This document shows, piece by piece, positions 1,380-17,983 of a stretch of DNA of 49,413 bases. Source of the DNA: a virus; IMG/VR virus record IMGVR_UViG_3300035698_011691, positions 1 to 49,413 of that record. One strand, 5' to 3'. The notes under the pieces are model-generated. The model searched no databases. It was not told the DNA's origin and was given only the letters and a program-made list of their open reading frames with translations. A program made the translations under genes and the position numbers. Within the stretch, counting starts at the first letter, position 1. Each line of letters starts with the position of its first letter.

Positions 1380-1402
1380 TTTTTTATTTTTTTATTTTTT
1401 TT
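1380..1402 (+). terminator. Poly-T terminator at convergent gene ends
   Basis: Three runs of 6-8 T, each broken by a single A, follow the stop of the plus-strand gene. T-runs terminate archaeal transcription. The run overlaps the last codons of the convergent minus-strand gene. Confidence 0.6.
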
Positions 1403-2571
1403 AAGTGTTCTACAAGTTTTTTAGCAGATAATTCCCATGTCCACTTCTTTACATCTTCTAAAGCTTGTTTTCCCATCTCTTTTACTTTGTCTTGATTATT
1501 AAAACACCATCTCATTTCATTTTTTATATGTTCTATATATGGCACTGCCCATTCAACCCCTTCATACATTATATCATCTTTTACTTCTTCCAATTTATAA
1601 TTTATAAATAATGAATTTTTATTTGTCATATAATCTGTTTGCCCACCATAGTTTGTTTGTATTGTTGGCAAACCACAAGCCATTGCCTCAATTCCAGGAA
1701 GATTAAATGCTTCTGCTCTTGTTGCACAAACAAATACATCTGCATCATTATACATTTTGTATAGTTTATCATAAGGAATATTATCTAAACAAATCTTTGT
1801 TATTGCTCTATCAGGAGGATTATTTAAATTTATCAATGATTGTTGTAACATCTGAGGATTCATATATGCAGTATTAAGCTTTACTATCAGTTCTACTTTT
1901 TCATCTTTGCCAAATTCTTCAGCAAATGCTTTTATAACATATTGAACTCCTCCTCTATCCCAAGAAGTTCCTCTCCATCCTTTGTTACAAATGAATTTGA
2001 AAGTGGGTAGAGAAGGGCTCGAACCTTCAGTCTTCCCCGCTTCAGGGGGATGCTTTCCCATTAAGCTATCTACCCTTTTGGGTTTGAAAAGATTTAAATC
2101 AACTCCATGAGGTACTATTCTTATTTGGTCTACAAGTAGTTGTTCATCTTTACTTAATTGTTCTGGATAACCACTTTCATTAGTATGTTGGTCTGCAAAG
2201 AGTGTTTTTATAATAGCATCTTTAGTATGTTGTGAAGGTACTAAAATTAAATCAATATTAGGATTTAAAAACTCATCAACAAAAGATTTTGGAACATTAC
2301 TTCCTTCCCAAACACAATAACCTATATTCATTCCCAATCCAGTATAGAGTTTCCAATTGTGAGGTGTAGCTATGATTAGATTGATTTCATTATCATCTGG
2401 TTTTGCTAAAATCATATCTAACTCAGCATCATTAACTAACTTCTCCCATTCAGGAACTAATTGAGTTGATAATCTTACATCTGCTTGTTTGTATAAAGCA
2501 TTGGCTAATTGTCTTGTATGTATATCATACCCAGTTGTTCCGAGTATGCTTCCTATTATATTTATTTTCAT
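1384..2571 (-). CDS. GT4 glycosyltransferase with tRNA gene in frame
   Basis: 395 aa, GT-B fold. The N-terminal domain (1-165) ends in the usual interdomain signature VPHGVDLNLFKP. The C-terminal domain begins at FKFICNKGWRG and carries the nucleotide-sugar site ADVFVCATRAEAFNLPGIEAMACGLP, with the E-x7-E pattern of retaining GT4 enzymes. It would transfer a sugar from a nucleotide-sugar to an unknown acceptor in the cytoplasm. Odd point: about 24 residues of the interdomain linker (166-190) are encoded by a complete tRNA-Phe gene on the same strand, without breaking the frame. The start overlaps the next gene as ATGA. Confidence 0.9.
   Translation of the reverse strand: MKINIIGSILGTTGYDIHTRQLANALYKQADVRLSTQLVPEWEKLVNDAELDMILAKPDDNEINLIIATPHNWKLYTGLGMNIGYCVWEGSNVPKSFVDEFLNPNIDLILVPSQHTKDAIIKTLFADQHTNESGYPEQLSKDEQLLVDQIRIVPHGVDLNLFKPKRVDSLMGKHPPEAGKTEGSSPSLPTFKFICNKGWRGTSWDRGGVQYVIKAFAEEFGKDEKVELIVKLNTAYMNPQMLQQSLINLNNPPDRAITKICLDNIPYDKLYKMYNDADVFVCATRAEAFNLPGIEAMACGLPTIQTNYGGQTDYMTNKNSLFINYKLEEVKDDIMYEGVEWAVPYIEHIKNEMRWCFNNQDKVKEMGKQALEDVKKWTWELSAKKLVEHLKKIKK
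2004..2075 (-). tRNA. tRNA-Phe (anticodon GAA)
   Basis: Reading the minus strand, 72 nt fold into a full cloverleaf. The acceptor is GGGTAGA/TCTACCC, the D arm GCTT/AAGC with loop AATGGGA (A14, G18-G19, A21), the anticodon arm TCCCC/GGGGA with loop CTGAAGC (anticodon GAA), the variable loop AGACT, and the T arm GAAGG/CCTTC with loop TTCGAGC. U8, the A15-U48 pair, G53-C61 and discriminator A73 are all as expected. CCA is not encoded. It sits wholly inside a glycosyltransferase gene. A TTTAAATC box at about 2092-2099 could serve as its promoter, although it is slightly close. Confidence 0.93.
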
Positions 2572-2690
2572 TTTTTAATCCATCTTTTATATTTCTTATG
2601 TAATTCTATAAGTATTTTTCTTATTTCACTTACACACCAAACTCCAACTGTGAACAGAAATACTATTCCTACAACTTCTAAAAAATTCAT
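2568..2690 (-). CDS. Small single-pass membrane protein
   Basis: 40 aa (MNFLEVVGIVFLFTVGVW...). One hydrophobic helix at about residues 4-20 is followed by a basic amphipathic tail (RKILIELHKKYKRWIKK). Its stop overlaps the glycosyltransferase start as ATGA, the junction type used throughout this operon, which supports it as a real gene. Function unknown. Confidence 0.5.
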   Translation of the reverse strand: MNFLEVVGIVFLFTVGVWCVSEIRKILIELHKKYKRWIKK

Positions 2691-2691
2691 T

Positions 2692-2772
2692 TTAATAGTT
2701 ATTATCCCAAGCCCATTTAATTCCAATTCCAATAATTATTCCTATCAGTAATGCTAATTCACACGACACCAT
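2692..2772 (-). CDS. Micro-protein, possible membrane helix
   Basis: 26 aa: one hydrophobic Ile/Gly-rich helix followed by KWAWDNNY. It fills the space between two genes and its start overlaps the end of the preceding gene. Size alone makes this tentative. Confidence 0.3.
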   Translation of the reverse strand: MVSCELALLIGIIIGIGIKWAWDNNY

Positions 2773-3607
2773 TTAACATCTCCTTTCTATAAGTTTCTAA
2801 AAAATCACCATGCTTATTAAATAATCTCTTTGTAAAAGCATTTAGCAATTCATGATTACTTCCTATTCTATCTTGATATTCTTTTGTTCTCTCTCCTCCA
2901 GATGGAGTTTGTAAATGATAAGCAATGGCTCCTGTATCAATTCCAATCTTAAATCCTTTTACTAAAGCTTTGAATGAAAAGAATTGCTCTTCTCTATAAC
3001 TACAAAAACCTAAATTATCTTCGTATTCAACTTCTTTATGAACTTCTTTTTTAATTAAAGCCATACTTCTAAAATTAGGAGAAGGAAGTATTTTATCATC
3101 TAAATATTCCATTCCACAATCATCTCCAAAGTATACAATCTCTCCTTTATCATTCAATCTAACATCACTTATAAATGGCTCTACAAACTTAGTTTCTCTC
3201 TTAGGAAAAGGCACTCCTACAGCAGGAACAACTCCACTTGCTATGTCATAGCCCTTCTCCAAGACTTTTATTAACCTTTCTATATAATCAGGTTGTAATA
3301 AGTTGTCATCATCTAATCTTAGTATTGCCTCTCCTTTTCCAATCTTCATTATCCTTTCTACTAACATCCTTCTTAACTTTGTAACGCCATAAGGTATGTT
3401 GTTTCTCATCATCACAATATTATGATTTTCTAATTTCATTCTGTTCGTTATTGCAGTTATAAAATGATGTTGTTGTATTGGCAATCCACTTCTATCATCA
3501 TATATAAAAATATCAAAATCTTGATGTGTTTGTGTTCTCAAACTTTGTAAAAGCAAAGCTAATTCTGTTGGACGGTCTTTCGTACATATCATTATATCTA
3601 TACGCAT
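2759..3607 (-). CDS. GT2 family glycosyltransferase
   Basis: 282 aa, GT-A fold. The N-terminus IDIMICTKDRP is the usual first strand and loop, DDRS (about 38-41) contacts the nucleotide, and RLDDDN (about 97-102) is the DXD metal site. A later DNLGFCSYREEQFFSF stretch fits the acceptor/ED region. It would be an inverting sugar transferase with unknown donor and acceptor. It overlaps the radical SAM gene by 10 nt. Confidence 0.88.
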   Translation of the reverse strand: MRIDIMICTKDRPTELALLLQSLRTQTHQDFDIFIYDDRSGLPIQQHHFITAITNRMKLENHNIVMMRNNIPYGVTKLRRMLVERIMKIGKGEAILRLDDDNLLQPDYIERLIKVLEKGYDIASGVVPAVGVPFPKRETKFVEPFISDVRLNDKGEIVYFGDDCGMEYLDDKILPSPNFRSMALIKKEVHKEVEYEDNLGFCSYREEQFFSFKALVKGFKIGIDTGAIAYHLQTPSGGERTKEYQDRIGSNHELLNAFTKRLFNKHGDFLETYRKEMLNGVV

Positions 3608-4896
3608 TCTAATAACTCCTTTTTTAATGTATTTATTTCTTGTGTTGTTAAACTATTTGTTCTTGTAAAACAAGGATGAATTCCATCACCTTTATAGAAA
3701 GTATCATCTTTTGAAAAGTCAGGTCTATTAAAATATAAACCTTTGTATCCAAAACTATACCCTTCAAATCGTGGTGAATAAGTTGCGTTGTCATAAATTT
3801 TACTTCCTGGATATGGTGTTAAAATAGTTACATCAAAAGTATCTGGTTTTGCTTCTTGTATATATCTTTTTGTTACCATAACATCATCATATGTTTCAGA
3901 TGGACAACCAACTAATGTAAAAGCTTTGAATTTTATTCCTTTGTCTTTTATCATTTGAGTTGCTTTTCTATTTATCTTATCTGTAGTTCCTTTATTTACA
4001 ACTTTGAGTATTCTATCACTTCCACTTTCAATTCCACTACATAATTCTACAAAACCAGCTTCTGCAAGATGTTCTAATAATTCAGGATGCTTAACAACTA
4101 AATCTGTTCTTACGAATCCCCTATGTTTATAATCTCTATCTTTAAGCAATTTTGTTAATGCTGTTAATCTTGATGGGTTTATATTTATTTCATCATCATA
4201 CCACATGAATGCTGAAAATCCAAATTTGTCATTTAAATAATCCATTTCTTTTACTACTTCTTTTGGACTTCTATGTCTTGGATTTTTATACATTGGCATG
4301 TCTCTACCACTACAAAACTCACATGCAAATGGGCATCCCCTTTGAGTCATAATTGTTGTAGCATCTCTTCCTGCTAATTTATATTTATAAGATTTTATAT
4401 CTATAAAAGACCTATCTGGAATAGGTTGTTTATCTATATTAATTAAATCAGTTGTTGCCCATTGCTGTCGTCTTAGTTTAACCATAGCAACGTCTCTAAT
4501 TGATATACTTTCACCATCTCCATATACTATCATATCAAACTCTTCAAGAGTTTTAGTATTAACATCTGTTATCCCTCTTTGTCTTAGCATAGAAATAGCA
4601 GAAGCATGTGGTCCTCCAACAAATGTGAATGCGTTAGGATTCTTATCTTTGAGTATTCTATTTATTTTATGAGCATATTTGAATTGTGGTGATGTTGATG
4701 TAATTCCAAACATATCTGCTTTTTTAGCTAATCTTCTTACATCTTCTTCCCAATTCTTATTACCATTTAAATCTTTAACTTCTACATCAAGTCCTCTTTC
4801 TTTCCACGCTGTTGCAAGTTGAAGTATTCCCAAATAAGGAAATACTTTGTCATCTTGTAGAAAAGGACTTGGTGGATTTATTAATATTGTTTTCAT
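3598..4896 (-). CDS. B12-binding radical SAM enzyme (1)
   Basis: 432 aa. The first 150 residues form a cobalamin-binding Rossmann domain (NPPSPFLQDDKVFPYLGILQLA, then FVGGPHASA). The radical SAM core starts at RGCPFACEFCSG, a CxxxCxxC cluster that binds the 4Fe-4S used to cleave SAM. The family includes methylases, ring-modifying enzymes and tailoring enzymes acting on unactivated carbon. The sugar-gene context suggests C-methylation or rearrangement of a glycan precursor, but the substrate is inference. Confidence 0.88.
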   Translation of the reverse strand: MKTILINPPSPFLQDDKVFPYLGILQLATAWKERGLDVEVKDLNGNKNWEEDVRRLAKKADMFGITSTSPQFKYAHKINRILKDKNPNAFTFVGGPHASAISMLRQRGITDVNTKTLEEFDMIVYGDGESISIRDVAMVKLRRQQWATTDLINIDKQPIPDRSFIDIKSYKYKLAGRDATTIMTQRGCPFACEFCSGRDMPMYKNPRHRSPKEVVKEMDYLNDKFGFSAFMWYDDEININPSRLTALTKLLKDRDYKHRGFVRTDLVVKHPELLEHLAEAGFVELCSGIESGSDRILKVVNKGTTDKINRKATQMIKDKGIKFKAFTLVGCPSETYDDVMVTKRYIQEAKPDTFDVTILTPYPGSKIYDNATYSPRFEGYSFGYKGLYFNRPDFSKDDTFYKGDGIHPCFTRTNSLTTQEINTLKKELLECV

Positions 4897-5213
4897 CTTA
4901 ATTCTAATTTGCTTATAATGTATTTAAATTGTTTATATTTATTCTTTCTAAGCCACCATGTAAACCATATTGCATTCATATGTGCTGCATAGAGTCCTAC
5001 TTTATGACATCTAAAACATAATGTAATTCCATTATCAATATCCCATCTACATCCTTTCATTCCTTTTGGCAATATATGATGTGCATGACAGTTTCTTCCT
5101 ACTAATTTATTTTTACATATTTGACAAGTAAAATTATCTCTTTCTTTTACTCTTTTCTTCCAAGTATTGTCTAAAGCTTTCAATTCGCTTTTCTTAGTTA
5201 TTGTTTTTGGCAT
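4893..5213 (-). CDS. HNH endonuclease
   Basis: 106 aa. CQICKNKL (zinc pair), HAHHILPKG (catalytic HH), DNGITLCFRCHK (Asn and second zinc pair) give the complete H-N-H order. The basic N-terminus (MPKTITKKSELK) suits DNA binding. It overlaps the radical SAM gene as ATGA, so it is embedded in the sugar operon and may be a free-standing homing-type nuclease that spread within it. Confidence 0.88.
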   Translation of the reverse strand: MPKTITKKSELKALDNTWKKRVKERDNFTCQICKNKLVGRNCHAHHILPKGMKGCRWDIDNGITLCFRCHKVGLYAAHMNAIWFTWWLRKNKYKQFKYIISKLELR

Positions 5214-5214
5214 T

Positions 5215-5406
5215 TTATTCTTTGAACAACCCTTTTATTTTTTTTGCACAATCTGGACAAATTTGTTTGTTAGGTAGGATTTCTTTTGCACAAAAGAAAT
5301 GTCCTTCTAAATATGGAGTAATTTCTAATGTGTCTAACCATATTGCAATTACACAATATCCAGGTTTGAATTTTTTGCACATCTCACATTTAAACATTTT
5401 TACCAT
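5215..5406 (-). CDS. Zinc-ribbon protein
   Basis: 63 aa from the ATG at 5406. That start was chosen because it sits beside the end of the SDR gene; an ATG at 5397 and one further upstream are also possible. It shows CEMCKKF, a mid Cys pair and a closing CPDC: two Cys pairs that would bind one zinc. Many such small zinc proteins occur in this genome. Specific role unknown. Confidence 0.6.
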   Translation of the reverse strand: MVKMFKCEMCKKFKPGYCVIAIWLDTLEITPYLEGHFFCAKEILPNKQICPDCAKKIKGLFKE

Positions 5407-5407
5407 T

Positions 5408-6040
5408 TTAAAAACTATGACTATCTCCTCCATCTACAGTTATTGTTGTTCCATTAATATGTGATGCTTTGTCACTACATAAAAAAGCTACTATATTAGC
5501 TACATCTTCTGGCTCTCCCAATGACATTTTATTTTCTTTTGCAAATCTTTTTATATCTGGTTTAGTATTGATACATCCAGGGCAAATAGTATTAAATGTT
5601 GTTCCTTTATAATTTCCAGCAAAAGATTTCATGAGGGCAATTTGTGCTGCTTTTGCAGATATAAAAGCTGGGCTTGGACCTTTAATTTTTTCTTTTCCCC
5701 ATATAGACGATATTGTTACTACTCTTCCATAATCTCTATCTTTTTTTACAAATTGTTGAGTTAATTCTGCTGCTATTCCCCAATTCTTTTGCATAATAAT
5801 ATCCCAATCCTTTTTCCATGTTCCTCCTCCACCAACATTATTTATAAGTATATCTATTTTATCTATAAATGACTCTTTTATCATGTCAACTATATGTTCT
5901 TCTGTTAAATCAAATCCTGTTGATGTTGATATATTAACAACTTTTACTCCTTCTTCTTCTAATGCTTTCTTGATAGCAAGTCCTATTCCGTGACTTCCGC
6001 CTGTTATAAGAGCTTTCTTTCCTTTAAGATTTAATTCCAT
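5408..6040 (-). CDS. SDR-family protein with Phe in place of catalytic Tyr
   Basis: 210 aa classical short-chain dehydrogenase/reductase fold. The nucleotide loop GGSHGIG (about 14-20), the NNVGG segment, the catalytic ISSIW Ser, and the C-terminal GEPEDVANIVAFLCSD...VDGG are all present. The YxxxK motif reads FISAK, so the general-acid Tyr is Phe while Lys remains. Either chemistry is altered or lost, or it is a binding or structural paralogue. Full length for the family. It lies between the transketolase and radical SAM genes of the sugar island. Confidence 0.88.
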   Translation of the reverse strand: MELNLKGKKALITGGSHGIGLAIKKALEEEGVKVVNISTSTGFDLTEEHIVDMIKESFIDKIDILINNVGGGGTWKKDWDIIMQKNWGIAAELTQQFVKKDRDYGRVVTISSIWGKEKIKGPSPAFISAKAAQIALMKSFAGNYKGTTFNTICPGCINTKPDIKRFAKENKMSLGEPEDVANIVAFLCSDKASHINGTTITVDGGDSHSF

Positions 6041-6095
6041 TTCATATAAAATACTATATATTCTTTACATTTAATTTGAAAATTTATATAATTCA

Positions 6096-6230
6096 TCATT
6101 TTTTAAGTCCTTTCTTTCCTCCCTTCATCTTTCCTATCCCTTTTCCGCCAGCTAATCCTCTACCTTGTCCTCTTCCATCTCGTGGACCTTGACTTCCTCT
6201 TCTTGGACCTGTTTTATCTCTTTTTGGCAT
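6096..6230 (-). CDS. Gly/Arg/Lys-rich micro-protein
   Basis: 44 aa, starting MPKRDKTGPRRGSQGP and continuing as RDGRGQGRG and Lys/Gly repeats. It has no hydrophobic core and is very basic, so it is probably disordered and nucleic-acid or phosphate binding. The KTGPR...GRGxGRG pattern recalls small proteins seen in tailed-phage genomes and DUF5320-like peptides, but the match is by eye. About 55 bp of AT-rich spacer separate it from the SDR gene. Confidence 0.5.
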   Translation of the reverse strand: MPKRDKTGPRRGSQGPRDGRGQGRGLAGGKGIGKMKGGKKGLKK

Positions 6231-6236
6231 TTTTAT

Positions 6237-7169
6237 TTACCTCCTTATAAATTCTTCTATTTTATTTATTAATGAATCTACATCTAATCCAATCTTTTTT
6301 GATAACACTTCTCTTGGTCCATAATTCTGTAAGTAATCTGTCATTCCAATTCTTTTTAAATTAGTATTCATATTAATATCACAAATAAACTCTGCTATTA
6401 TAGAACCAACACCACCATCTAAAACATGTTCTTCTATTGTTATAATTTTATCTGTATTTAAATATGAAGATAAAACTTTTTTATTTAAAGGTTTTAATCT
6501 ATGTAAATCTACAACACCAATTTGTAATCCTTCTTTTTCCAATCTTTTAGAAATTTCAATGGCTTTATGAACCATATTTCCACAAGCTATTATTGTTCCA
6601 TGTTGTCCTTCTTTTATTTTATTTACCCCATCTTCAAAATTATATTCTATCTTATCATATATAAAAGGCAAATTATCATGGTCAAATCTAACATAACTTA
6701 AACAAGGATTTTCTCCAATATTTTTAATCATTGATGCTAAACTAATTGTATCAGAAGGACAATAAATTTTCATATTTGGAATGCTCCTCATCATTGCTAC
6801 ATCTACAATGGCATTATGGGTTGGTCCTTCATGACTATATGAAAATCCAGTTCCAATTCCAACTATTGTTACAGGTGCTTTTCTTATCCCTAAACTTAAT
6901 GATATTTGTTCAAAACATCTAAGAGTTATGAATGGAGTTATACCATGAATGAATATCTTTTTTCCACATGATGCTAATCCTGCAGCCATATTTATTATAT
7001 TTTGCTCTGATGGTCCACAATTTAAAACTTGTTCTGGAATTTCATCATAAAATCTTTGTAAGCTTTGTGCTCCTTGGTCTCCTAAAAGTAAAATTATATT
7101 TTTATCTTTCTTTGCTGCTATTAGCAATTCTTCAAAAAACGCATCTCTCATATCTTCATATATTATCAT
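6237..7169 (-). CDS. Transketolase-like, C-terminal subunit
   Basis: 310 aa: the pyrimidine-binding domain (about 1-170) plus the transketolase C domain (about 190-310). GPSEQNIINMAAGLA carries the conserved catalytic Glu that activates thiamine diphosphate; GFSYSHEGPTHNAIVD is the typical His-rich loop. With the adjacent N-terminal half it forms a split transketolase or 1-deoxyxylulose-synthase-like enzyme that moves a two-carbon ketol. ATGA overlap with its partner implies 1:1 synthesis. Confidence 0.9.
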   Translation of the reverse strand: MIIYEDMRDAFFEELLIAAKKDKNIILLLGDQGAQSLQRFYDEIPEQVLNCGPSEQNIINMAAGLASCGKKIFIHGITPFITLRCFEQISLSLGIRKAPVTIVGIGTGFSYSHEGPTHNAIVDVAMMRSIPNMKIYCPSDTISLASMIKNIGENPCLSYVRFDHDNLPFIYDKIEYNFEDGVNKIKEGQHGTIIACGNMVHKAIEISKRLEKEGLQIGVVDLHRLKPLNKKVLSSYLNTDKIITIEEHVLDGGVGSIIAEFICDINMNTNLKRIGMTDYLQNYGPREVLSKKIGLDVDSLINKIEEFIRR

Positions 7170-8029
7170 GCCATCACCTCTATTGGAATTTTAATTTTTT
7201 CTTTTAGCTCTTCTCCTTTTGCAAAATCAATACCAATAAAATATTTTTTTTCTTTTAGTTCTTCTATTGCTTGTTTCAATTCAGCTCCTTTTGGAATACC
7301 ATGATGCCATTTAGCTACTCCTTCCATAAATGAAATTCCTTTTCCTTTTATTGTATGAGATATAATAACTGCTGGCTTATTTGTTTTTGTTTCTTTTATT
7401 TCTTTAAAACAACTAATAATTTCTCCTAAATTATGACCATCTATTTCATAAATATTCCAATTAAACCCAAGCCATTTATAAAACATTGGACTTTTACTTG
7501 CATATTTATTTGTATGTCCAAGCACACCAAATTTATTATCATCAACTATGACAATCAAATTATTTAATTCATTACTTGATGCAAACATAACTGCTTCCCA
7601 AATAGAACCTTCTGTACATTCAGTATCACCCAAAAGAACATATGTTTTATAATCCTTTTTATCTAATTTTGCAGCAAGGGCTATTCCACAACCAAAACCT
7701 AAACCATATCCTAAAGAACCTGCAGTCATTTCTACTCCAGGAGTTGACCAATCTGAATGTCCTGGCATTACTAAACTTCCATATTGGTTTAATGTTTCTT
7801 CACTTATAACATCATTGTCAGCTAAGATTGTATAAAATGCTAATGGACAATGTCCTTTACTAAAAACAAAATGGTCTTCTTTTTTTAATACTCCACCATT
7901 ATAAAGGGCTAATAGAAGTTCTACTGATGACAATGCACCACCTAAATGGGCTTGTCCACATTTCACTCCTACATCTAATATCTTTCTTCTAATTTCTTTA
8001 GCTTTCTCATCCAATTCTTTTAAGTCCAT
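7166..8029 (-). CDS. Transketolase-like, N-terminal (ThDP) subunit
   Basis: 287 aa. The thiamine-diphosphate motif is GDTECTEGSIWEA...VDDN (about 135-165). HLGGALSSVE and KGHCPLAFYTIL are standard transketolase loops, and the PGHS and GSLGYGLG segments complete the site. A strong AGGAGGTGA ribosome site precedes ATG 8029, which fixes the start. Split enzymes of this form occur in archaea and in sugar-modification clusters. The product could be sedoheptulose-7-phosphate, which would feed a heptose pathway with the HldE-like gene at 15033 (inference). Confidence 0.9.
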   Translation of the reverse strand: MDLKELDEKAKEIRRKILDVGVKCGQAHLGGALSSVELLLALYNGGVLKKEDHFVFSKGHCPLAFYTILADNDVISEETLNQYGSLVMPGHSDWSTPGVEMTAGSLGYGLGFGCGIALAAKLDKKDYKTYVLLGDTECTEGSIWEAVMFASSNELNNLIVIVDDNKFGVLGHTNKYASKSPMFYKWLGFNWNIYEIDGHNLGEIISCFKEIKETKTNKPAVIISHTIKGKGISFMEGVAKWHHGIPKGAELKQAIEELKEKKYFIGIDFAKGEELKEKIKIPIEVMA

Positions 8030-8663
8030 CAATTTTCACCTCCTCTGGTAAGCAATATAAAAATCCTCTATAAGTTTTCTCTGGTTTGCTCCAAGCATAT
8101 ATCAGATTATCCAACTCATCCATATCTTCTGCCTCTTCTACTTTCTTTGGGTCACAACTACTTAATTCATTTGTATAGAATTTAAAGTTTTTGTTTATCT
8201 TCAATAATTTATCTTTTAGTAAATTAAAATTTAAAGGTTGATTATCGTAAATGATATGTCCTAAATTATTATCAAAATCATGAATAATTATAATACAATC
8301 TTTTATTTTCCTTAAACTATCAAGTTCATCTAATACAATAAACCTTTTGCCTTTTGGAAGATTGATGTTATAAAAATGAGCGTCAAGATAAAAGATTACA
8401 GGTCCATTTAAGTTTGTAAATCTTTTCAAAAACTTAGGACTATTCTCATTAATCACTATAACATTTTCATAATCTTTTAGCTTTTCAAGTGAATGGTTAA
8501 AAGACTTCCTGTTAAGTTCGCAAGTAATAATAGTTTCAAAATTCTTTGATTGTACTCTTGCATTATTTCCATTGAATGTTCCTGTTTCTACAAAGAGTTT
8601 TACTTTAAATATATCTCTTAGTTTCTTTATATGCTCTAATGATGCTTTATCTGTCCAGCTCAT
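8007..8663 (-). CDS. Class I SAM methyltransferase-like protein
   Basis: 218 aa from the ATG at 8663, which makes an ATGA overlap with the preceding gene. The N-terminal LFVETGTFNGNNA resembles motif I of Rossmann methyltransferases of the macrocin-O-methyltransferase/FkbM neighbourhood. Later IFYLDAHF and IIIHDFDN fit strands 4-5 with acidic residues that could bind metal. Likely O-methylation of a sugar. The 3' end overlaps the transketolase gene by 23 nt. Confidence 0.7.
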   Translation of the reverse strand: MSWTDKASLEHIKKLRDIFKVKLFVETGTFNGNNARVQSKNFETIITCELNRKSFNHSLEKLKDYENVIVINENSPKFLKRFTNLNGPVIFYLDAHFYNINLPKGKRFIVLDELDSLRKIKDCIIIIHDFDNNLGHIIYDNQPLNFNLLKDKLLKINKNFKFYTNELSSCDPKKVEEAEDMDELDNLIYAWSKPEKTYRGFLYCLPEEVKIDGLKRIG

Positions 8664-9334
8664 TTTATTCCCCACTTTTTTCTCATGTAAACAAATGCTT
8701 CTTTTTTTAATTGTTCAATATTTTTAACTTTCTCATGTTCATGTCCTTCTACATAATTTGGAATATGATTAACCCAATAATCTATAATATATACTTGCAA
8801 CCCAGCTTGCTTAACAGCATAAGTATAATCAATATCACATCCCCATCCAAGAGGTATGTTCTCATCATATCCTCCCAACTTTTCAATAGTTTTATAAGGG
8901 ATGTATGTGCACCATCCTCCTACCCAATGAAATCCTTTTATAAATTCAAGACCAGATTGTCCTCCTCCACCATAGCAAGTTATTATTCCACAATCTTCTC
9001 TTTCTTCTGCTATTCTTTTCATTTCAATTAGCCAATCACAATTATATTTTCTTGAAAATATGACATCTGTTTGAGTTAAGAATAAATCTTCTTTTCTTTT
9101 TTTTGCTATATCAAATAATTTATTATAAGCTTTCATTGGTCCTTCTTTTTTAGTATGAATTACATCTACAAATGTATAAAACTTTGCTAACTCATCACAA
9201 AATTCAGCACTACCGTCTGTGCTTTCACTTTCTAACAATATTATAGGGTCTCTTATTAAAGTTGATTTAAGAAAACTATAGAATGCATATTTCAATCCTT
9301 CTAAATTGTTGTAAACTGGTATTCCTACTATCAT
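8660..9334 (-). CDS. GT2 family glycosyltransferase
   Basis: 224 aa, GT-A fold: MIVGIPVYNNLEGL opening, LESESTDGS nucleotide loop, LTQTDVIF in the position of the DXD strand, and the acceptor-side GGYDENIPLGWGCDIDYTYAVKQAG that is typical of GT2 (an ED-type catalytic region). It lacks a strict DXD, having TDV, so donor-metal contact may be altered. Cytosolic. Confidence 0.85.
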   Translation of the reverse strand: MIVGIPVYNNLEGLKYAFYSFLKSTLIRDPIILLESESTDGSAEFCDELAKFYTFVDVIHTKKEGPMKAYNKLFDIAKKRKEDLFLTQTDVIFSRKYNCDWLIEMKRIAEEREDCGIITCYGGGGQSGLEFIKGFHWVGGWCTYIPYKTIEKLGGYDENIPLGWGCDIDYTYAVKQAGLQVYIIDYWVNHIPNYVEGHEHEKVKNIEQLKKEAFVYMRKKWGIK

Positions 9335-10566
9335 TTATTTAACCCCCTTTCTCTCAAAAATGTTTGTAATTCTACTAAGTTATCCATAATTTGTTGTCTT
9401 GGCAACCCCCATCCTGGTTCATATTTAAAAGGCACAGCATCTTCTACACTATCTTTACTATCTTTAAATCTACATCTTAAATGATTATAGCTTGAATAAT
9501 TCTTATCTAAAATCTTCATACCAAATCTTTCTGGGTGTTCATAAATTTCACATCCTGGATATGGTTGGAATGTGGATAACAAAACAACATCAGGATTGGT
9601 TTTCTTTATGAAGTTCTTCGTTCTACTGACAATATCTACTGGTTCTTTTGGTAATCCATTAAGTAAATATAGCCTTGTTTTTATTCCATATTTTTTGCAT
9701 AATAATAATGTTTCTTCTGCTTGTTCTACTACAATACCTTTTTTATTTACATTTAAAACATTTTGGTCAACACTTTCTAATCCTATTGAAAGTTCTACAC
9801 AACCAGATTTGCTTGCCAATTTTATTATATTTTCTTGAACTCCTGCTCTTGTTTGTCCTCTCCAAAAAACTTTCTTTCTTTTTAGTAAGTTTAAGAATTC
9901 AATTGTTTCTTTTTCTTTTGATGGAAAACATATCTCATCTTGCAAACTTAATCCCTTAATGTTATATTCTTTTTTTAGATAGTCAATTTCTTCTTCAATG
10001 CTTTCTAAACTTCTTCTTTCTATTGGCATTCTATTATAGTTAGCACAGAAAGTACAAAACATTGGACAACCATGGGAAAATAGAACTGTTGTTGAAGGAA
10101 TGTCTTGAGTTTTAAATAAACTTGTTACTATTTTCTTTTTTGGCAAGAAGTGTCTTTTTGGGAATGGGTAATCATCTTGTGCTGATATATTATAAATATC
10201 TTCTAAATCATTTTCTTCAACATCTCTCATTATTTGTTTGACACTCTCTTCTCCTCTACCCAGACATATGGCATCAAATACCTTTAAGCTTTCTTCTGGA
10301 AATATATTTATATGAGGTCCTCCTGCTATATGAACTCCAGGATTATCTTTTACTATTTGTTTTACTTCTTTAAAATCTGGTGATGCAACTGTATAGAAAT
10401 GTATATCTGCTTTTGGTAATGTTTTATGTCCATCTCTAAAGTCTGTAAAGACTATTTCATGTCCTTCATTTTCTAATATTGTTGCAAGATATAATTGTGT
10501 AAGAGGTTGTGCTCTTAATGGTTCTGTCCAATAACTCCAACTTGGTATTACAAAATTAACTTTCAT
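9331..10566 (-). CDS. B12-binding radical SAM enzyme (2)
   Basis: 411 aa. The N-terminal cobalamin-type domain (MKVNFVIPSWSYWTEPLRAQPLTQLYLATIL...; GGPHINIFPEE) precedes the radical SAM core with HGCPMFCTFCAN (CxxxCxxC, about 165-175) and a TIM barrel with ELSIGLESVDQNVL. Same architecture as the enzyme at 3598 but clearly diverged, so the island carries two distinct B12 radical chemistries. It overlaps both neighbours by 4 nt. Confidence 0.88.
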   Translation of the reverse strand: MKVNFVIPSWSYWTEPLRAQPLTQLYLATILENEGHEIVFTDFRDGHKTLPKADIHFYTVASPDFKEVKQIVKDNPGVHIAGGPHINIFPEESLKVFDAICLGRGEESVKQIMRDVEENDLEDIYNISAQDDYPFPKRHFLPKKKIVTSLFKTQDIPSTTVLFSHGCPMFCTFCANYNRMPIERRSLESIEEEIDYLKKEYNIKGLSLQDEICFPSKEKETIEFLNLLKRKKVFWRGQTRAGVQENIIKLASKSGCVELSIGLESVDQNVLNVNKKGIVVEQAEETLLLCKKYGIKTRLYLLNGLPKEPVDIVSRTKNFIKKTNPDVVLLSTFQPYPGCEIYEHPERFGMKILDKNYSSYNHLRCRFKDSKDSVEDAVPFKYEPGWGLPRQQIMDNLVELQTFLRERGLNK

Positions 10567-10841
10567 TTGAAATCCATATGAACTGCCCCCATTGTTGTTA
10601 ACTTTCCATTAATATAAATTCTACCCATACAAATAGTACTTCCACATTCAGGGCATGAAGTCTGTTTCATTCCATAAATAGCACAAAAACCCCCTGTTGG
10701 AGAACTATAACTTTTCCATTTGTGTCCATTGATACAAGTATAATGCCAAACTTCTTTATTCTTCTTATTCTCTTTATTCATGTCCCTAAAAATATCTCTT
10801 TTTCTTGGAGGTCTTAGAAATTTAAAAATACTACCGAACAT
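10563..10841 (-). CDS. Zinc-finger protein
   Basis: 92 aa with a very basic N-terminus (LRPPRKRDIFRDMNKENKKNK) followed by WHYTCINGHKWKSY and CPECGSTICMG. The Cys/His set could bind one zinc as a ribbon. TCxNGHxW is common in small zinc ribbons. No family name assigned. It overlaps the dehydratase gene by 11 nt. Confidence 0.55.
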   Translation of the reverse strand: MFGSIFKFLRPPRKRDIFRDMNKENKKNKEVWHYTCINGHKWKSYSSPTGGFCAIYGMKQTSCPECGSTICMGRIYINGKLTTMGAVHMDFK

Positions 10842-11946
10842 TTTCTCTCCACCAGTTTAGTAAATCTTCCATAGTTTTCTCAAAACTGATTTCAGGTTTC
10901 CATCCTGTTTGTTTTATAAATTTATTGCAATCAGGAATCTGAAGAGTGACGTCGTATGGTCTTAATAGCTTTGGGTCTTCTTGTTTCCATAAATGTCCTT
11001 TTATTGTAGATAAACTTATAAGATAATCTAACATCTCTCCAATTGTCTTTGTTGTATTACCACCAATATTATAAACTTCTCCTGGTACTCCTTTTCTAAC
11101 TAAAAGATAATATGCTTTTGCTGCATCTCTTACATCTGCCCATGTTCTAATTGAATCTAAGTTTCCATGTTTTATTGGAGGCATATTTCCTAGACAAAGT
11201 AATCCTCCTCTGCTTTTTTCTAATTCAGCAATCTGTTTGGCAAAAGCAACTTCAGCACTCAACATTGTTCGTCTTGGTCCTGTATGTGTGAACATTCTTG
11301 TTCTAATAGTTTTTAATCCATAGTTTGTCCAATACATTAATGCTAACATATCTGTTCCTACTTTCCCAACAGCATAAGGATTAGCTGGGTTGAATTGCTG
11401 AGTTTCTTTAATTGGTATATCTTCTTCCTTCACTAAACCATAGACTTCTGATGATGAACAAACATGAATTGTTGGGTCATAACAAGTATATTTTTCTTCA
11501 TCTGAGTACATAGCTGGAGTCAAATTTTCATTTGCTATTAATTCTCTTATCATTTTAACAGCTTCTAATAAATTATAAGTTCCTAAAGTGTTTGTTCTTA
11601 TTGTTTCTGCTGGATAAACAAAACTTGCTGAAGGATAGCTTTGTGCTGCTAAATGGAATATGTAATCTGGTTTAACTTCTTCTATTGCTTTAATACAACT
11701 ACTCAAATCATTCAAATCCATTAATATCCAGTTGACTTTATCTTTGATGTGTTTGAAAGAGTCTTGGTTGTCTGTCCATCTATATGTGACATAAACTTCT
11801 TCTCCTTTTTCTAAAAGCAAATCTGCTAAGTGTGAAGCGACAAATCCTGGCCCTGTTATAAGATTTATAGTTGCAACTTTTTCTTTTGTTTTTATTTCTT
11901 CTTTCTCTTCTTGTTGTTGTCCAAACAACTGTTGTAAGCCGTTCAT
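10831..11946 (-). CDS. NAD-dependent epimerase/dehydratase (GDP-mannose 4,6-dehydratase type)
   Basis: 371 aa from the ATG at 11946. A longer frame exists upstream, but a membrane-protein gene ends at 11949, so the shorter start is preferred. Extended SDR: ITGPGFVASHLADLL nucleotide loop (the third Gly is Ala), HLAAQSYPSASF, the catalytic SSSEVYG Ser and YAVGK Tyr/Lys pair, and FTHTGPRR. The layout matches GDP-mannose 4,6-dehydratase and relatives, which make 4-keto-6-deoxy nucleotide sugars. A Gln/Glu-rich extension precedes the fold. Confidence 0.87.
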   Translation of the reverse strand: MNGLQQLFGQQQEEKEEIKTKEKVATINLITGPGFVASHLADLLLEKGEEVYVTYRWTDNQDSFKHIKDKVNWILMDLNDLSSCIKAIEEVKPDYIFHLAAQSYPSASFVYPAETIRTNTLGTYNLLEAVKMIRELIANENLTPAMYSDEEKYTCYDPTIHVCSSSEVYGLVKEEDIPIKETQQFNPANPYAVGKVGTDMLALMYWTNYGLKTIRTRMFTHTGPRRTMLSAEVAFAKQIAELEKSRGGLLCLGNMPPIKHGNLDSIRTWADVRDAAKAYYLLVRKGVPGEVYNIGGNTTKTIGEMLDYLISLSTIKGHLWKQEDPKLLRPYDVTLQIPDCNKFIKQTGWKPEISFEKTMEDLLNWWRENVR

Positions 11947-11948
11947 TT

Positions 11949-12107
11949 TTACGGTGTAATTAGTGCTATAGTGATAAAAATTATTAGATAAATAAGTATT
12001 TCCACACCATAAGCTAAGACGTTCCACCAGAAACTAAATAACTTAGTTCCATTCAAAACCCAAGCTAACAAATTTGCTGCTAACAAAAGAGTTGATATTG
12101 CTACCAT
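11949..12107 (-). CDS. Two-helix membrane micro-protein
   Basis: 52 aa with two hydrophobic helices (about 3-17 and 32-51) and almost no charge. It overlaps the upstream cupin gene by one base (TAATG) and ends 2 nt before the dehydratase start, so it is in the operon. Could anchor or gate a glycan-modifying complex; no family recognised. Confidence 0.5.
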   Translation of the reverse strand: MVAISTLLLAANLLAWVLNGTKLFSFWWNVLAYGVEILIYLIIFITIALITP

Positions 12108-12508
12108 TATTTTTTGCCCTCCTTTAATTTATAAACAACATCATTCATTTCTCCCGAAATATATATTGCTTCTGTTCCTTCTATGATTATGCTATCTTCT
12201 AAAAACTCTCCTGTATGAGCAACATAGGGGTCTGTTATCATTACTTCTCCTTCGTTCATAATTAATGTTTCTACTTTTTGATAATCAACATCATCAGGAT
12301 TTACATTAGCTAAATAATATTTTATTTTTCCTTTTAATAAATATCTATTTTCCCTGTAACGATGGAAATGATTTCCAAGTATTTGTCCTTTCTTTACTTT
12401 TAAAATCTTCACTTGTTTACAATCAAAATTACCATTAAACATTTCAAGTATGTCTCTCCTTTCATCTGAGTGAGCAAGTTTGATTGGGTGTATTGTTACG
12501 CCTTTCAT
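12107..12508 (-). CDS. Cupin, sugar isomerase/epimerase-like
   Basis: 133 aa from ATG 12508, which gives an ATGA overlap with the gene before it. The sequence opens with SDERRDILEMF and has the cupin metal motif GNHFHRYRENRYLLKGKIKYYL followed by a second strand set with EGEVMITDPYVAHTGE. This is the pattern of WxcM/FdtA-type sugar isomerases and capsular cupins that act on dTDP-4-keto-6-deoxy sugars, which fits beside the dehydratase gene. Exact reaction unknown. Confidence 0.75.
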   Translation of the reverse strand: MKGVTIHPIKLAHSDERRDILEMFNGNFDCKQVKILKVKKGQILGNHFHRYRENRYLLKGKIKYYLANVNPDDVDYQKVETLIMNEGEVMITDPYVAHTGEFLEDSIIIEGTEAIYISGEMNDVVYKLKEGKK

Positions 12509-12654
12509 TTTCCACAATGTTTACATTTTTCTTTTATTTTCATTTTATTAATTAGTTTAAATGGATTACAAAGTAAGTCTATTCCTGCTCCCAATTGTCC
12601 TTCAATAGCAAAAACAATTCTTTCTCTTTCACCTTTTGTTAAATTTATTTTCAT
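12505..12654 (-). CDS. Small CxxC-tailed protein
   Basis: 49 aa. Starts MKINLTKGERERIVFAIEGQ and ends with KCKHCGK. ATGA overlaps on both sides (with the E1 beta and cupin genes) strongly support translation. The C-terminal CxxC could bind metal as half of a site shared with a partner. Function unknown. Confidence 0.55.
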   Translation of the reverse strand: MKINLTKGERERIVFAIEGQLGAGIDLLCNPFKLINKMKIKEKCKHCGK

Positions 12655-13199
12655 TTTGTATTTGGACTCTTCTCTCCTTGTGGTGTTTCTATTAATAATG
12701 TTGACATCCCTGCTTGTGCTCTACAATATGCTAATTCATAACCTATTTCTATTGATTTGGGTGTCCTTAATTTAATAACTAAGATATTTTTTAATCCTGT
12801 CTTTAACATTTTATAGTAATCTCCGCAATGCTGAGGTCCTGGATATAATGGTTTTGTATTTCCAATTTGAGTTCTTATAATCACTCCCGGACTAAACTCT
12901 CCATGTGATATTTCTTCTGCTTTGTCTAAGTGATTTACTAATTGATTGATAGCACAAAGCAAGAAGTCCATTCTCGGATAGATTGTTATGGGAATGTAAC
13001 CCTCCAAAGCCAGTCCAATACTCATTCCCATTTGCATTTCTTCAGCAACTGGCATTTCTATTCTTTTCTTTTTATTAACATCAACTAAACTTCTATGCAT
13101 AGCACTTCCTTCATATATCACAGTTTGTCCTAAAAAGATTGTATCTTTCTGTTTTCCTAACCACTCCATTGCTTTTTTTGTTTCTTCTAAATAGTTCAT
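12651..13199 (-). CDS. Thiamine enzyme E1 beta-like, pyrimidine domain only
   Basis: 182 aa. IFLGQTVIYEGSAMH, then EMPVAEEMQMGMSIGLALEGYIPI (catalytic Glu) and HCGDYYKMLKTGL match the pyrimidine-binding domain of 2-oxoacid dehydrogenase E1 beta. The usual beta subunit is about 320 aa and carries a C-terminal transketolase domain; here the protein stops at the end of the first domain. Its likely partner is the E1 alpha-like protein at 14375. The pair would bind thiamine diphosphate and could decarboxylate or ligate a 2-oxo acid. Confidence 0.82.
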   Translation of the reverse strand: MNYLEETKKAMEWLGKQKDTIFLGQTVIYEGSAMHRSLVDVNKKKRIEMPVAEEMQMGMSIGLALEGYIPITIYPRMDFLLCAINQLVNHLDKAEEISHGEFSPGVIIRTQIGNTKPLYPGPQHCGDYYKMLKTGLKNILVIKLRTPKSIEIGYELAYCRAQAGMSTLLIETPQGEKSPNTK

Positions 13200-13399
13200 A
13201 TTGGTACTCTCCCGTTTTCATCTTTTAATAAATGCTTAATGAAATCTAATACTACTTCTTTGTAAGCACTTCCAAACCAATTAGTTTTATCACTATCGTT
13301 CCATCTAAATCCCTTTTTATAAAACCAAATATCTCCATTAGACTTACTTAGTTGTTCTTGCATATCTACTATTTTATTTATTATTTTATCTTTATTCAT
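13196..13399 (-). CDS. Hypothetical small protein
   Basis: 67 aa, ATGA-overlapped at both ends inside the thiamine-enzyme cluster. Mixed charged helix, then WFYKKGFRWNDSDKTNWFGSAY and a closing helix. No recognised motif. Confidence 0.6.
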   Translation of the reverse strand: MNKDKIINKIVDMQEQLSKSNGDIWFYKKGFRWNDSDKTNWFGSAYKEVVLDFIKHLLKDENGRVPI

Positions 13400-14373
13400 C
13401 TTTGTAAACCTCTCTCATCAAATTTTTCAATTTCACCTTTTAAAAATGCTAATCTAAGTTTATTTTTATCTAATAAATTTAACATAGAAATATAATCAAT
13501 ATATTGTAATTTATTATCAAATTCTTGTAAAGAAATTCCTGTATATTTTTTTAATTTATTTATAATATCTTTGCTAAAATCCATTTGATTAAAAACAATT
13601 CCAATTCCTGCTAATTTTAAACAATTAATAGTAGCAATATTTTTTTCTTTCAATGTTGCAGATTTTGAATTTATTATTTTATAAAAAACTTCAGGTTTCT
13701 TTAAAAACAATGTTTCTCCAACAGTTAAGAACCCACCACTCCTTTTTGAATATTCATATAACATATGATTAAAATATTGTGAATTATATAAAATATATAA
13801 TTTAAAATCTTTTTCATTTAAATATTTATGAGTATCAAAGAATAAAGGTTGTTTTTCATATAATCTTGAAAATTCAACTTCACAAAGTATTCCTAAAACA
13901 TTATCTAAGTTTTTTTCACATCCTTTTATAATATCTAAATCTGCTCCTTGTGCATCAACAGATAAAAAATCAATATTTGGAACTTCTTTATTTTCAATTA
14001 AAGTATCAAGTTTGTTAATATCCATTTTTATAGTTGATGTTATTTTAGTATGGTCACCCCATTTAGTTTTTGTAGCTGGGATAATATAATTTGCTGCACT
14101 TTTTGCTGATTTAAGAATGCTACTTGCTGAAGGGTCAGCTGTTATATAAAAATTTGTTTTGCCATCTTCTTTTCCAACACATTTGTTGATTATTTTATAT
14201 TTTTTATCTCTTACATCAAAATCATCAAATGCTGTTTCTTCTGCATCATAAAACGTCCAAAAAATATCATCTTTTAAATTGTTTAGTAATTCTGTCGGAC
14301 CACAACTTTCAATGCCACCAATATGATGCACATTAATTATAAAATCTTTTTTTTGTATTTCGTGTTTTTCCAT
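13396..14373 (-). CDS. FkbM-family methyltransferase
   Basis: 325 aa. The FkbM signature IDFLSVDAQGADLDIIKGCE lies about residues 137-155, preceded by NVHHIGGIESCGPTELLNNL and VGKEDGKTNFYITADPSASS, the usual order in this family of O-methyltransferases acting on sugars and lipids. The C-terminal 90 residues are an extra helical region. It lies between the two halves of the E1-like enzyme. Confidence 0.82.
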   Translation of the reverse strand: MEKHEIQKKDFIINVHHIGGIESCGPTELLNNLKDDIFWTFYDAEETAFDDFDVRDKKYKIINKCVGKEDGKTNFYITADPSASSILKSAKSAANYIIPATKTKWGDHTKITSTIKMDINKLDTLIENKEVPNIDFLSVDAQGADLDIIKGCEKNLDNVLGILCEVEFSRLYEKQPLFFDTHKYLNEKDFKLYILYNSQYFNHMLYEYSKRSGGFLTVGETLFLKKPEVFYKIINSKSATLKEKNIATINCLKLAGIGIVFNQMDFSKDIINKLKKYTGISLQEFDNKLQYIDYISMLNLLDKNKLRLAFLKGEIEKFDERGLQR

Positions 14374-14374
14374 T

Positions 14375-15043
14375 TTAAAAATTTATCCATTTCCCAATTC
14401 CATAGTGAGGATATTTCCTCTTGTATTTATATCCAAAGACTTTTCTTTTTTTAGTTTTACCATTGCACCCCCAAACTTTATTTGTGGGAGTATAACATCC
14501 TATTTCATTATTTTCAACTATAAATGTTATTGGTAAATTAAATCTAATAGCATAATTATTACATTCATGTGCTATTCCCATACAAGAAGCCATATCTCCA
14601 ATGAAACACCAAACATGTGGCATCCCCATACATTTTCCAATAATTTTCTTTTTATTATCCATAAAATCTAAATCTATATAACGAATATTATTTTTCCATT
14701 GCATTTTTATTGCCATAGCAACTCCTAAAGCAATAGGCAAATTCCCACCAACAATTGCTGATGTAAATATCTTATGTTTCTTTGAGTTGATACTGATACT
14801 TCTTTTTGCTAATATCTCTCCTTTAAGCCATTTAGCATCTTGACTTTTTAACAAAGCATGATAATGACTTCTATGAGTTGAGAATACCCAATCATTCTTT
14901 TTTATTTTCTTAAATATTTTTATAAGTTCTCTTTCTTGATTTCCATCAACACTCCCTGTAAGATGAACAGGTGCTCTTATTTTTCCTTCTGAATAGTTAT
15001 TAGCAATGTCTGTTTCAAAATCTATTAATTCTTTAGACTTCAT
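14375..15043 (-). CDS. Thiamine enzyme E1 alpha-like
   Basis: 222 aa. FSTHRSHYHALLK is the RxHxH loop of E1 alpha, and FIGDMASCMGIAHECNNYAIRFNLPITFIVENN is the thiamine-diphosphate motif (GDxA ... NN) at about 150-180. The protein ends about 40 residues later, where a standard alpha subunit (about 320 aa) carries on; a basic, aromatic tail replaces the rest. With the beta-like protein at 12651 it makes a trimmed heteromer. No E2 or E3 gene is seen, so a full oxidative complex is unlikely. Confidence 0.82.
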   Translation of the reverse strand: MKSKELIDFETDIANNYSEGKIRAPVHLTGSVDGNQERELIKIFKKIKKNDWVFSTHRSHYHALLKSQDAKWLKGEILAKRSISINSKKHKIFTSAIVGGNLPIALGVAMAIKMQWKNNIRYIDLDFMDNKKKIIGKCMGMPHVWCFIGDMASCMGIAHECNNYAIRFNLPITFIVENNEIGCYTPTNKVWGCNGKTKKRKVFGYKYKRKYPHYGIGKWINF

Positions 15044-15500
15044 CTTTTAACCTCCTTAGTATTTCTGAAGTTGAATAACTTGTTACATCATCTAAAAGAT
15101 TAAGTTTTCCATTCCATTCTTTTAATATTGGTTCTTCAATACCTTTATACCCACCTTTTGATTTTGTATGTTGAATTGGTTTAACTAATCTTAAAAAATT
15201 AGTTGGGTCATCTTCTTCAAATATATAAACATAATCTACTGGTATTAATTCATTTAAAACATATGCTCTTGCTCTTTGGTTATGAATTGGTCTTGTTGGT
15301 CCTTTTAATCTTTTGACTGATGCATCTGAATTAAGACCTACAACTAATATATCACAACTTGCTTTTGCTACTTTTAATAATTGAATATGTCCATAATGTA
15401 TTACATCAAAACAACCATTTGTAGTTCCTATCCTCCACCCTCTATGTCTAAACTCTTCTACTTTTCTTTTTAAATCATCTTTACTTATTATTTTTCCCAT
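15033..15500 (-). CDS. HldE/RfaE2-type nucleotidyltransferase
   Basis: 155 aa from ATG 15500. TTNGCFDVIHYGHIQLLKVAK is the HxGH nucleotidyltransferase motif (HYGH here); VGLNSDASVKRLKGPTRPI and VDYVYIFEEDDP are hallmarks of the adenylyltransferase domain of HldE (D-glycero-D-manno-heptose-1-phosphate adenylyltransferase). The C-terminal YSTSEILRR is the ISTTxI-like motif. It would activate a sugar phosphate with ATP or CTP. The exact sugar is uncertain because no GmhA/GmhB or HldE kinase domain is seen here. Confidence 0.85.
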   Translation of the reverse strand: MGKIISKDDLKRKVEEFRHRGWRIGTTNGCFDVIHYGHIQLLKVAKASCDILVVGLNSDASVKRLKGPTRPIHNQRARAYVLNELIPVDYVYIFEEDDPTNFLRLVKPIQHTKSKGGYKGIEEPILKEWNGKLNLLDDVTSYSTSEILRRLKDEV

Positions 15501-15904
15501 ATTTTCCAATCAAATCCTTTTTCTTTATTTAATTCTGCTGCTAAACAATCAAGTTTTAAATCTTTTCTTTCGCCTATCTCATGACTTATAACATTCATTG
15601 CTTGATTCCTTACTCCATTTATTGAGTGAGTATATTTCAAAAGCTTGTCTTGAGATGTTCCGCCCTTTCTCGCTTCTGATTCATTTGTCCATATTGTTTC
15701 ATTTGCTACAGCATTTACTTGAATAGCTCTTATTATTTGAGATGTTATTTTCTTTTCTTTTAATATAATGTCTATATCATGCATAATTTCTTTTGCTTCT
15801 TCTTCATATTCTTTTTTGTGTTCTGGAATTTTAATTGATTTAAGTGTGACTATACAAAGTCTATCTATTAGTTGAGCAAATGTAGGTAAGAATTTTCTGT
15901 TCAT
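15488..15904 (-). CDS. Uncharacterised helical protein of glycan islands
   Basis: 138 aa from ATG 15904 (ATGA overlap). Starts RKFLPTFAQLIDRLCIVTLKSI and contains EHKKEYEEEAKEIMHDID and WTNESEARKGG followed by KYTHSINGVRNQAMN. It is all-alpha with conserved-looking His, Asn and Glu. I recall similar proteins in polysaccharide loci of phages and bacteria (DUF4254-like), but the assignment is weak. Confidence 0.55.
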   Translation of the reverse strand: MNRKFLPTFAQLIDRLCIVTLKSIKIPEHKKEYEEEAKEIMHDIDIILKEKKITSQIIRAIQVNAVANETIWTNESEARKGGTSQDKLLKYTHSINGVRNQAMNVISHEIGERKDLKLDCLAAELNKEKGFDWKIWEK

Positions 15905-17166: not shown

Positions 17167-17983
17167 GTTCTCTATAATAATCTACTATCTGTTTAATTCC
17201 TTCTCTTAATTTGATTTTAGGTTCATATCCAAATTTTCTTGCCTTTGTTGTATCTACAACTACTTGCTGTGGTTGTGCTACTTCAGGGTTATAAAATCTG
17301 ATTCTGATTTCTCCAACTTCATCAGCAATCATATCAGCAACATCTACTAATTTAACGACATCATTTCCAGAAATATCATAAGTATCATTTTTTGTTTCAT
17401 CCCATCTATTGTATAGCAACATAACTCCATCTACAAAATCATCAACATGAGTGAAGTCTAATGTTTTATTTTTATCTCCAAAGATAGGCAATTCTTCTCT
17501 TCTCAGTGCTTTCCTACACCATTCAGTTATCAATCTTCCTGTTAAATCTTTTCCAGGTCCATAGACAGTTGATGGTCTTATTATGATGTAATCTAATCCA
17601 TAACAATCATGATTTGCTCTAATTAAATTTTCTAAATATTTCTTACTTGCTGTATATGGATTTTCTTCTGGATGTAAAACTCTACTACTTGACATTGCAA
17701 TTGTTCTTGGTATTTTATTTTTTCTACAAACTTCAGCTATGTTAAAACTTCCAATAACATTATTTGTAAATGCGAGTGAAGGATTTTGGATTGTTTCTTC
17801 TATTTTACAAAAAGATGCTAAATGAAACATTGCATCTGCATCTGCTCTTAACCCTCTAATATCTATAATATCTTTGTCTTCTCTTCTATCTATTGAAGCT
17901 AAACAACTATGACCTTCATCTTCTAATCTTCTTTTTAGTACTTTACCAATCAATCCTTTGTGTCCTGTTATTATATATTTCAT
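17156..17983 (-). CDS. NAD-dependent sugar epimerase
   Basis: 275 aa extended SDR: TGHKGLIGKVL nucleotide loop, FHLASFCKIEETIQNP, MSSSRVL (Ser), YTASK (Tyr/Lys), RPSTVYGPG and DFTHVDDFVDG. This matches the UDP-glucose-4-epimerase/UDP-galacturonate epimerase group. Reversible oxidation of a nucleotide sugar; substrate not predictable. It follows the tight overlap pattern. Confidence 0.85.
   Translation of the reverse strand: MKYIITGHKGLIGKVLKRRLEDEGHSCLASIDRREDKDIIDIRGLRADADAMFHLASFCKIEETIQNPSLAFTNNVIGSFNIAEVCRKNKIPRTIAMSSSRVLHPEENPYTASKKYLENLIRANHDCYGLDYIIIRPSTVYGPGKDLTGRLITEWCRKALRREELPIFGDKNKTLDFTHVDDFVDGVMLLYNRWDETKNDTYDISGNDVVKLVDVADMIADEVGEIRIRFYNPEVAQPQQVVVDTTKARKFGYEPKIKLREGIKQIVDYYREHGT

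Follow-up and report, generated by a model that had tools for sequence, protein, structure and literature searches.

Glycosyltransferase gene with a nested tRNA-Phe gene

The DNA analysed here (the window, 49,413 bases) covers positions 1 to 49,413 of the IMG/VR virus record IMGVR_UViG_3300035698_011691. It contains a glycosyltransferase (GT) gene with a complete transfer RNA (tRNA) gene located inside its open reading frame (ORF). The GT belongs to the GT4 type with the GT-B fold and is encoded on the minus strand by an uninterrupted ORF of 395 residues (1384-2571), identified from the ORF list, the Pfam and PHROG matches and a structure model. Its product matches Pfam Glycos_transf_1 (PF00534, residues 207-332, E = 1.3e-12) and a PHROG glycosyltransferase family (E = 7.9e-32). 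The N-terminal Rossmann domain (residues 1-160, 2092-2571, minus strand) was delimited by alignment and model, and the C-terminal one (residues 191-395, 1384-2001, minus strand) by the Pfam match and invariant residues.

The only tRNA found by ARAGORN in the window is a tRNA-Phe with the GAA anticodon at 2003-2075 on the minus strand. The covariance-model search, which the earlier note had suggested as a check, gave a full-length match to Rfam RF00005 (model positions 1-71 of 71) at 2004-2075, minus strand, with a score of 70.1 bits (E = 2.3e-13), far over the gathering score of 29 bits. Folding of the RNA alone gives the exact cloverleaf (-25.9 kcal/mol); the cloverleaf stem score is 53 compared to 29 for the best of 200 shuffled sequences. 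These results confirm that the gene is a real and canonical tRNA-Phe, as had been proposed; a 70-bit cloverleaf is not coincidental. Since 70.1 bits lies at the upper end among the tRNAs scored in relatives and in metagenome-assembled genomes (MAGs), the gene shows no sign of decay.

Together with frame analysis, these matches define the tRNA gene as a 72-base body, from G1 to A73 and without an encoded CCA (2004-2075, minus strand). Its sequence, GGGTAGATAGCTTAATGGGAAAGCATCCCCCTGAAGCGGGGAAGACTGAAGGTTCGAGCCCTTCTCTACCCA, is enclosed by CTTTTCAAACCCAAAA on the left and CTTTCAAATTC on the right. The earlier note had framed the feature as 1996-2091; this interval does hold the tRNA, but it also includes flanking repeats which are not part of it. 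The GC content of the tRNA segment is 54% versus 30% in the remainder of the GT gene and 29% in the contig, and few other 72-base stretches in the contig are as GC-rich. No second copy of this tRNA is present in the contig.

The whole tRNA lies within the GT ORF, on the same strand, in frame and without a stop codon, so the read-through described previously holds. It is translated as RVDSLMGKHPPEAGKTEGSSPSLPT (codons 166-190, the two outermost of which also include flank bases). Stops interrupt two of the tRNA's three sense frames, and the GT uses the remaining, open one.

Integrity of the enzyme

Homologues of the GT were collected by alignment-based and pattern scans of viral contigs, as well as by scans within whole related records; the initial single-sequence searches gave no matches, unlike the alignment-based ones. 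The resulting alignment contains 32 full-length proteins, i.e., the window GT and 31 homologues. The window GT retains the residues invariant in the family and has neither a stop nor a frameshift in its 395 codons. An AlphaFold2 model built from this 32-row alignment has a mean predicted local distance difference test (pLDDT) value of 91.3 and a predicted template modelling (TM) score of 0.90. Foldseek places the model with GT-B enzymes, the best match being 3oy2, a glycosyltransferase of Chlorella virus NY2A (E = 2.1e-16, TM 0.68). The only residues with pLDDT values under 50 are 168-175 and 177-186, all of them encoded by the tRNA. As low confidence is confined to these residues, the tRNA appears to encode a disordered loop that joins two Rossmann domains, both intact, which supports the suggestion that the interdomain linker is a place where an insertion is tolerated.

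It could be argued that the tRNA is the functional product, while the GT is dying or expendable and the open frame through the tRNA is a matter of luck. Excision of the tRNA would destroy the messenger RNA (mRNA) of the GT, the GT ORF has no ATG between the tRNA and residue 237, and one relative (L012) has a GT that is interrupted right after the linker. However, the retention of invariant residues over 395 uninterrupted codons, the high-confidence fold and the location of the insert in its sole stop-free sense frame make such an explanation quite improbable.

Boundaries of the insert

The alignment check of the proposed linker insertion supported it. There are 28 residues between the conserved F162 and F191 in the window GT, while the 31 homologues mostly have 8-12 (median 10), and none of the 31 has a tRNA in the interdomain linker. 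For example, the relatives L143 and L150 read LFKPKNKSHDKFTFICNKGW and IFKPQPTKKDKFVFLCNKGW, respectively, where the window reads LFKPK-RVDSLMGKHPPEAGKTEGSSPSLPT-FKFICNKGW.

Native codons can be recognised at both ends of the insert. The left linker flank CTTTTCAAACCCAAAA (2076-2091, minus strand), coding for LFKPK, has the same motif in L143, L150, L010, and L012; it ends with AAAA directly before G1. The right flank CTTTCAAATTC (1993-2003, minus strand), coding for (T)FKF, starts directly after A73 and is the same in L142 and L119 and nearly so in L147. The linkers of these relatives are free of tRNA. Since native codons abut both ends, the insert is exactly the tRNA body from G1 to A73, which stands in for about six native linker residues.

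The flanking repeats TTTGAAAG and TTTGAAAAG are present as the earlier note stated, but they are not the signature of insertion it took them for. The left TTTGAAA copy, TTCAAACC, corresponds to the FKP codons and is found in the tRNA-free L143, L150, L010, and L012; the right copy, TTTCAAATTC, corresponds to the FKF codons and is found in the tRNA-free L142 and L147. As each copy exists in homologues without a tRNA, the repeats are ancestral coding sequence, and we rejected their interpretation as a target-site duplication or transposition footprint.

The same boundaries bear on the possibility that a host or viral tRNA was mis-joined into the GT gene during assembly. The arrangement is known from a single metagenomic contig, and we found no second contig with the junction, although near copies may lie outside the searches. 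Against an artefact, the GT frame runs on through both flanks, which resemble the homologues; the insert amounts to exactly 24 codons, and the tRNA occurs nowhere else in the contig. We consider an artefact very improbable.

Long linkers without a tRNA

Eight other homologues have linkers of 17-44 residues, with no tRNA signal in any of them. According to the earlier note, homologues with an equally long linker but no tRNA would speak against the tRNA call. Such homologues do exist, while most of the family has linkers of 8-12 residues. Linker length alone therefore proves nothing, and the site must have been lengthened by other means too.

No recurrence or recognisable remnant of the nested tRNA was found in the linkers of the 31 homologues. 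The closest full-length relative, L142, has a 26-residue linker (2285-2362); the DNA of this linker, taken together with its flanks, has a folding energy of -18.6 kcal/mol. The idea of a decayed tRNA in it had come from a ATCCACCTGAA match and from an inverted repeat, GTCTCC/GGAGAC, that marks the linker ends. This was rejected: Rfam gave no match, and neither the cloverleaf score (p = 0.075) nor the alignment (p = 0.18) was significant. Common ancestry of the L142 linker and the DNA beside the L147 endonuclease gene (see below) was likewise set aside as weak (p = 0.037 among several tests). The L012 linker shares the microhomology GTAGATAG with the 5' end of the tRNA; with a shuffle p of 0.24, this is a lead only.

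These long linkers matter for the strongest rival explanation, according to which the tRNA is an inert passenger: a recent capture that is unprocessed, or for which processing is irrelevant, serving as a linker only and bound to decay into an ordinary long linker. The 17-44 residue linkers without a tRNA signal may be such decayed captures, the nested tRNA is known from one contig only, and an open sense frame is common in tRNA sequences (23 of 38 tested). On the other hand, the tRNA has remained fully intact, its score resembles that of working tRNAs, and the virus group has tRNA genes of its own. Overall, we regard an inert passenger as possible but doubtful.

tRNA and endonuclease genes at the GT locus of related viruses

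Related viruses of the group carry tRNA genes, and several of these are located next to the GT gene. An antisense tRNA-Met abuts or overlaps the GT stop codon in L141 (10042-10118), L163 (3670-3745), and L164 (2382-2457). In L183, tRNA and ORF overlap partially in the sense orientation: the GT stop codon TAG (3656-3658) lies in the 5' part of a tRNA-Ala gene (3648-3721). L010 has tRNA-Met and tRNA-Asp genes about 235 bases and more downstream of the GT. With the window left out and phylogeny uncorrected, five tRNAs are found within 300 bases of a GT versus 0.64 expected (p ~1e-4). As L141, L163, and L164 represent one lineage, about three independent lineages support the clustering.

Endonuclease genes were found in or near the linker. 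L147, which together with the window belongs to a four-member clade (support 99/99), has an HNH-endonuclease ORF (4385-5071) in the same linker, which divides the GT (3915-5804) into ORFs for the N-terminal (3915-4388) and C-terminal (5061-5804) parts. Relatives of this endonuclease are located elsewhere in the related viruses L094 and L097. In L188, a DUF559-type endonuclease ORF (2982-3605) with overlapping start and stop codons interrupts the GT (2498-4203) at this linker as well. The endonuclease inserts of L147 and L188 are mutually unrelated. In L187, an HNH-like ORF (268-681) splits the GT (1-1393) about 20 residues before the linker and the C-terminal half has its own ATG; here the HNH label reflects a Cys/His pattern read by eye, with no Pfam match at 1e-3. 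The overlapping stop and start codons of the split GTs suggest translational coupling of the halves. The window ORF is unsplit, and no endonuclease ORF interrupts the GT within the window.

Taken together, these comparisons indicate that in this group of archaeal-type tailed viruses the linker is prone to insertions, and that tRNA genes and endonuclease genes of several kinds have repeatedly entered the GT or come to lie against it. This GT hotspot may show how viruses acquire tRNA genes.

Virus type and gene context

The terminase of the window virus has its best match in Halogranum tailed virus 1 (E = 3e-41, followed by a different virus at 3e-16), the B-family polymerase matches best those of Haloarcula tailed viruses, and an ERCC4/Hef-type nuclease is encoded as well. 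Judging by these genes, the window probably derives from an uncultivated tailed virus with an archaeal host. G37 in the anticodon loop of the tRNA was considered as a proof of an archaeal host; this argument was dropped because phage-like tRNA-Phe genes share G37 and have an encoded CCA.

A GT2 glycosyltransferase gene (2759-3607, minus strand; identified by Pfam and neighbourhood comparison) is located immediately upstream of the GT4 gene, and the same gene order is found in L010 and L147. It opens a sugar/glycan block (2759-17983) coding for GT2 enzymes, B12-radical SAM proteins, transketolase halves, sugar epimerases, an RfaE-like nucleotidyltransferase and PDH-E1-like proteins. A small HNH endonuclease ORF (4893-5213), possibly another homing endonuclease, adjoins a radical SAM gene. 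An HNH-like stretch (42302-42439) lies just before the gene for the terminase large subunit, with similar ones in L089, L090, L098, L099, and L104. A scan of the GT region for sigma-70 promoters and terminators gave nothing over the chance level.

Possible fates of the transcript

We consider it rather likely that an intact viral tRNA-Phe gene was captured in the sense orientation and in frame at an insertion-prone linker of an apparently intact GT4 enzyme, which leaves each transcript an either/or fate. Some transcript copies would stay uncut and be translated into full-length GT, presumably still active despite its floppy 24-residue loop. In others the tRNA would fold, and RNase P and tRNase Z would cut out tRNA-Phe. 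Since such excision destroys the mRNA copy, each transcript could give either tRNA-Phe or the enzyme, not both. Competition between translation and tRNA processing would thus follow logically from the nested arrangement. A separate C-terminal half would not be readily made after cutting, unlike in the split relatives, because there is no ATG before residue 237. The least certain step is the route of entry: the linker may well have suffered a double-strand break, in the repair of which DNA carrying the tRNA was used; such an origin is plausible because endonuclease genes visit the linker site in relatives.

A more ambitious version would make this a working dual gene, the GT transcript giving either the loop-bearing enzyme or a functional tRNA-Phe and processing controlling the amount of GT during infection. 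This seems to us rather unlikely. In another variant, the mRNA halves may be rejoined after tRNA excision; as the tRNA body is exactly 24 codons, the rejoined GT would stay in frame and have a linker of four residues (KPKT).

Several observations weigh against the capture with an either/or fate that we favour. The nested tRNA is known from one contig, no relative having the same insert, and with a single occurrence selection on the tRNA cannot be shown; the capture may be recent and non-adaptive. A single contig also makes an assembly error possible, though the in-frame placement between native flanks argues that it is unlikely. No endonuclease in the window contig could be tied to the linker site. 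Finally, no nearly identical source tRNA turned up: the search of 371 genomes from the phylum of a Pacearchaeota MAG returned no match (an empty answer obtained without a positive control), none matched in plasmids, the matches in phages were weak, and viral tRNA-Phe genes located by pattern agree with the window tRNA at only about 60-65%.

Comparison with known nested and split genes

Tailed viruses of archaea carry tRNA genes, 36 of them in HGTV-1 (PMC8651126). The window virus resembles these as an archaeal-type tailed virus with a tRNA gene. Our literature search has found no nested tRNA in archaeal tailed viruses. To our knowledge, the tRNA genes of such viruses, HGTV-1 included, are all stand-alone.

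The split GTs of related viruses have a parallel in phage Aeh1, where nrdA is split by mobE; phages can produce functional enzymes even where homing endonucleases have split the corresponding genes (PMC2988022). Similarly, endonuclease-like ORFs, with start and stop codons that overlap, divide the GTs of L147, L188, and L187 in the linker or close to it. The window differs in that its insert is a tRNA rather than an endonuclease and its ORF is unsplit.

Nested tRNAs in ORFs have already been described in bacteria and mitochondria. In Alphaproteobacteria selC, coding for tRNA-Sec, is nested in selB, and an either/or fate of the transcript via tRNA processing was proposed (PMC8124441). The proposed fate is the same as that considered here, and selB/selC has remnants in relatives (PMC8124441). 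In that bacterial case, the tRNA extends the C terminus of a protein with which it is functionally linked, and the arrangement recurs in many species (PMC8124441). In the window, it is internal, occupies the interdomain linker of an unrelated enzyme, belongs to a virus and is seen once. The other precedent, available to us as cited in PMC8124441, is a mitochondrial tRNA-Lys located fully inside cox1 of Armadillidium vulgare. As far as that citation describes it, this tRNA likewise lies wholly within a protein gene in direct orientation; it belongs to a compact organelle genome, whereas the window tRNA is a clear insertion when compared to relatives with short linkers. Judging by the literature searched, what is new is the internal position in a linker, the involvement of an unrelated enzyme and the occurrence in a virus. 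The window locus would offer a clean case, beyond the tRNA-Sec and mitochondrial examples, of a single RNA stretch for which two mutually exclusive fates exist; it also illustrates how a tRNA sequence can supply the material for a new piece of protein.
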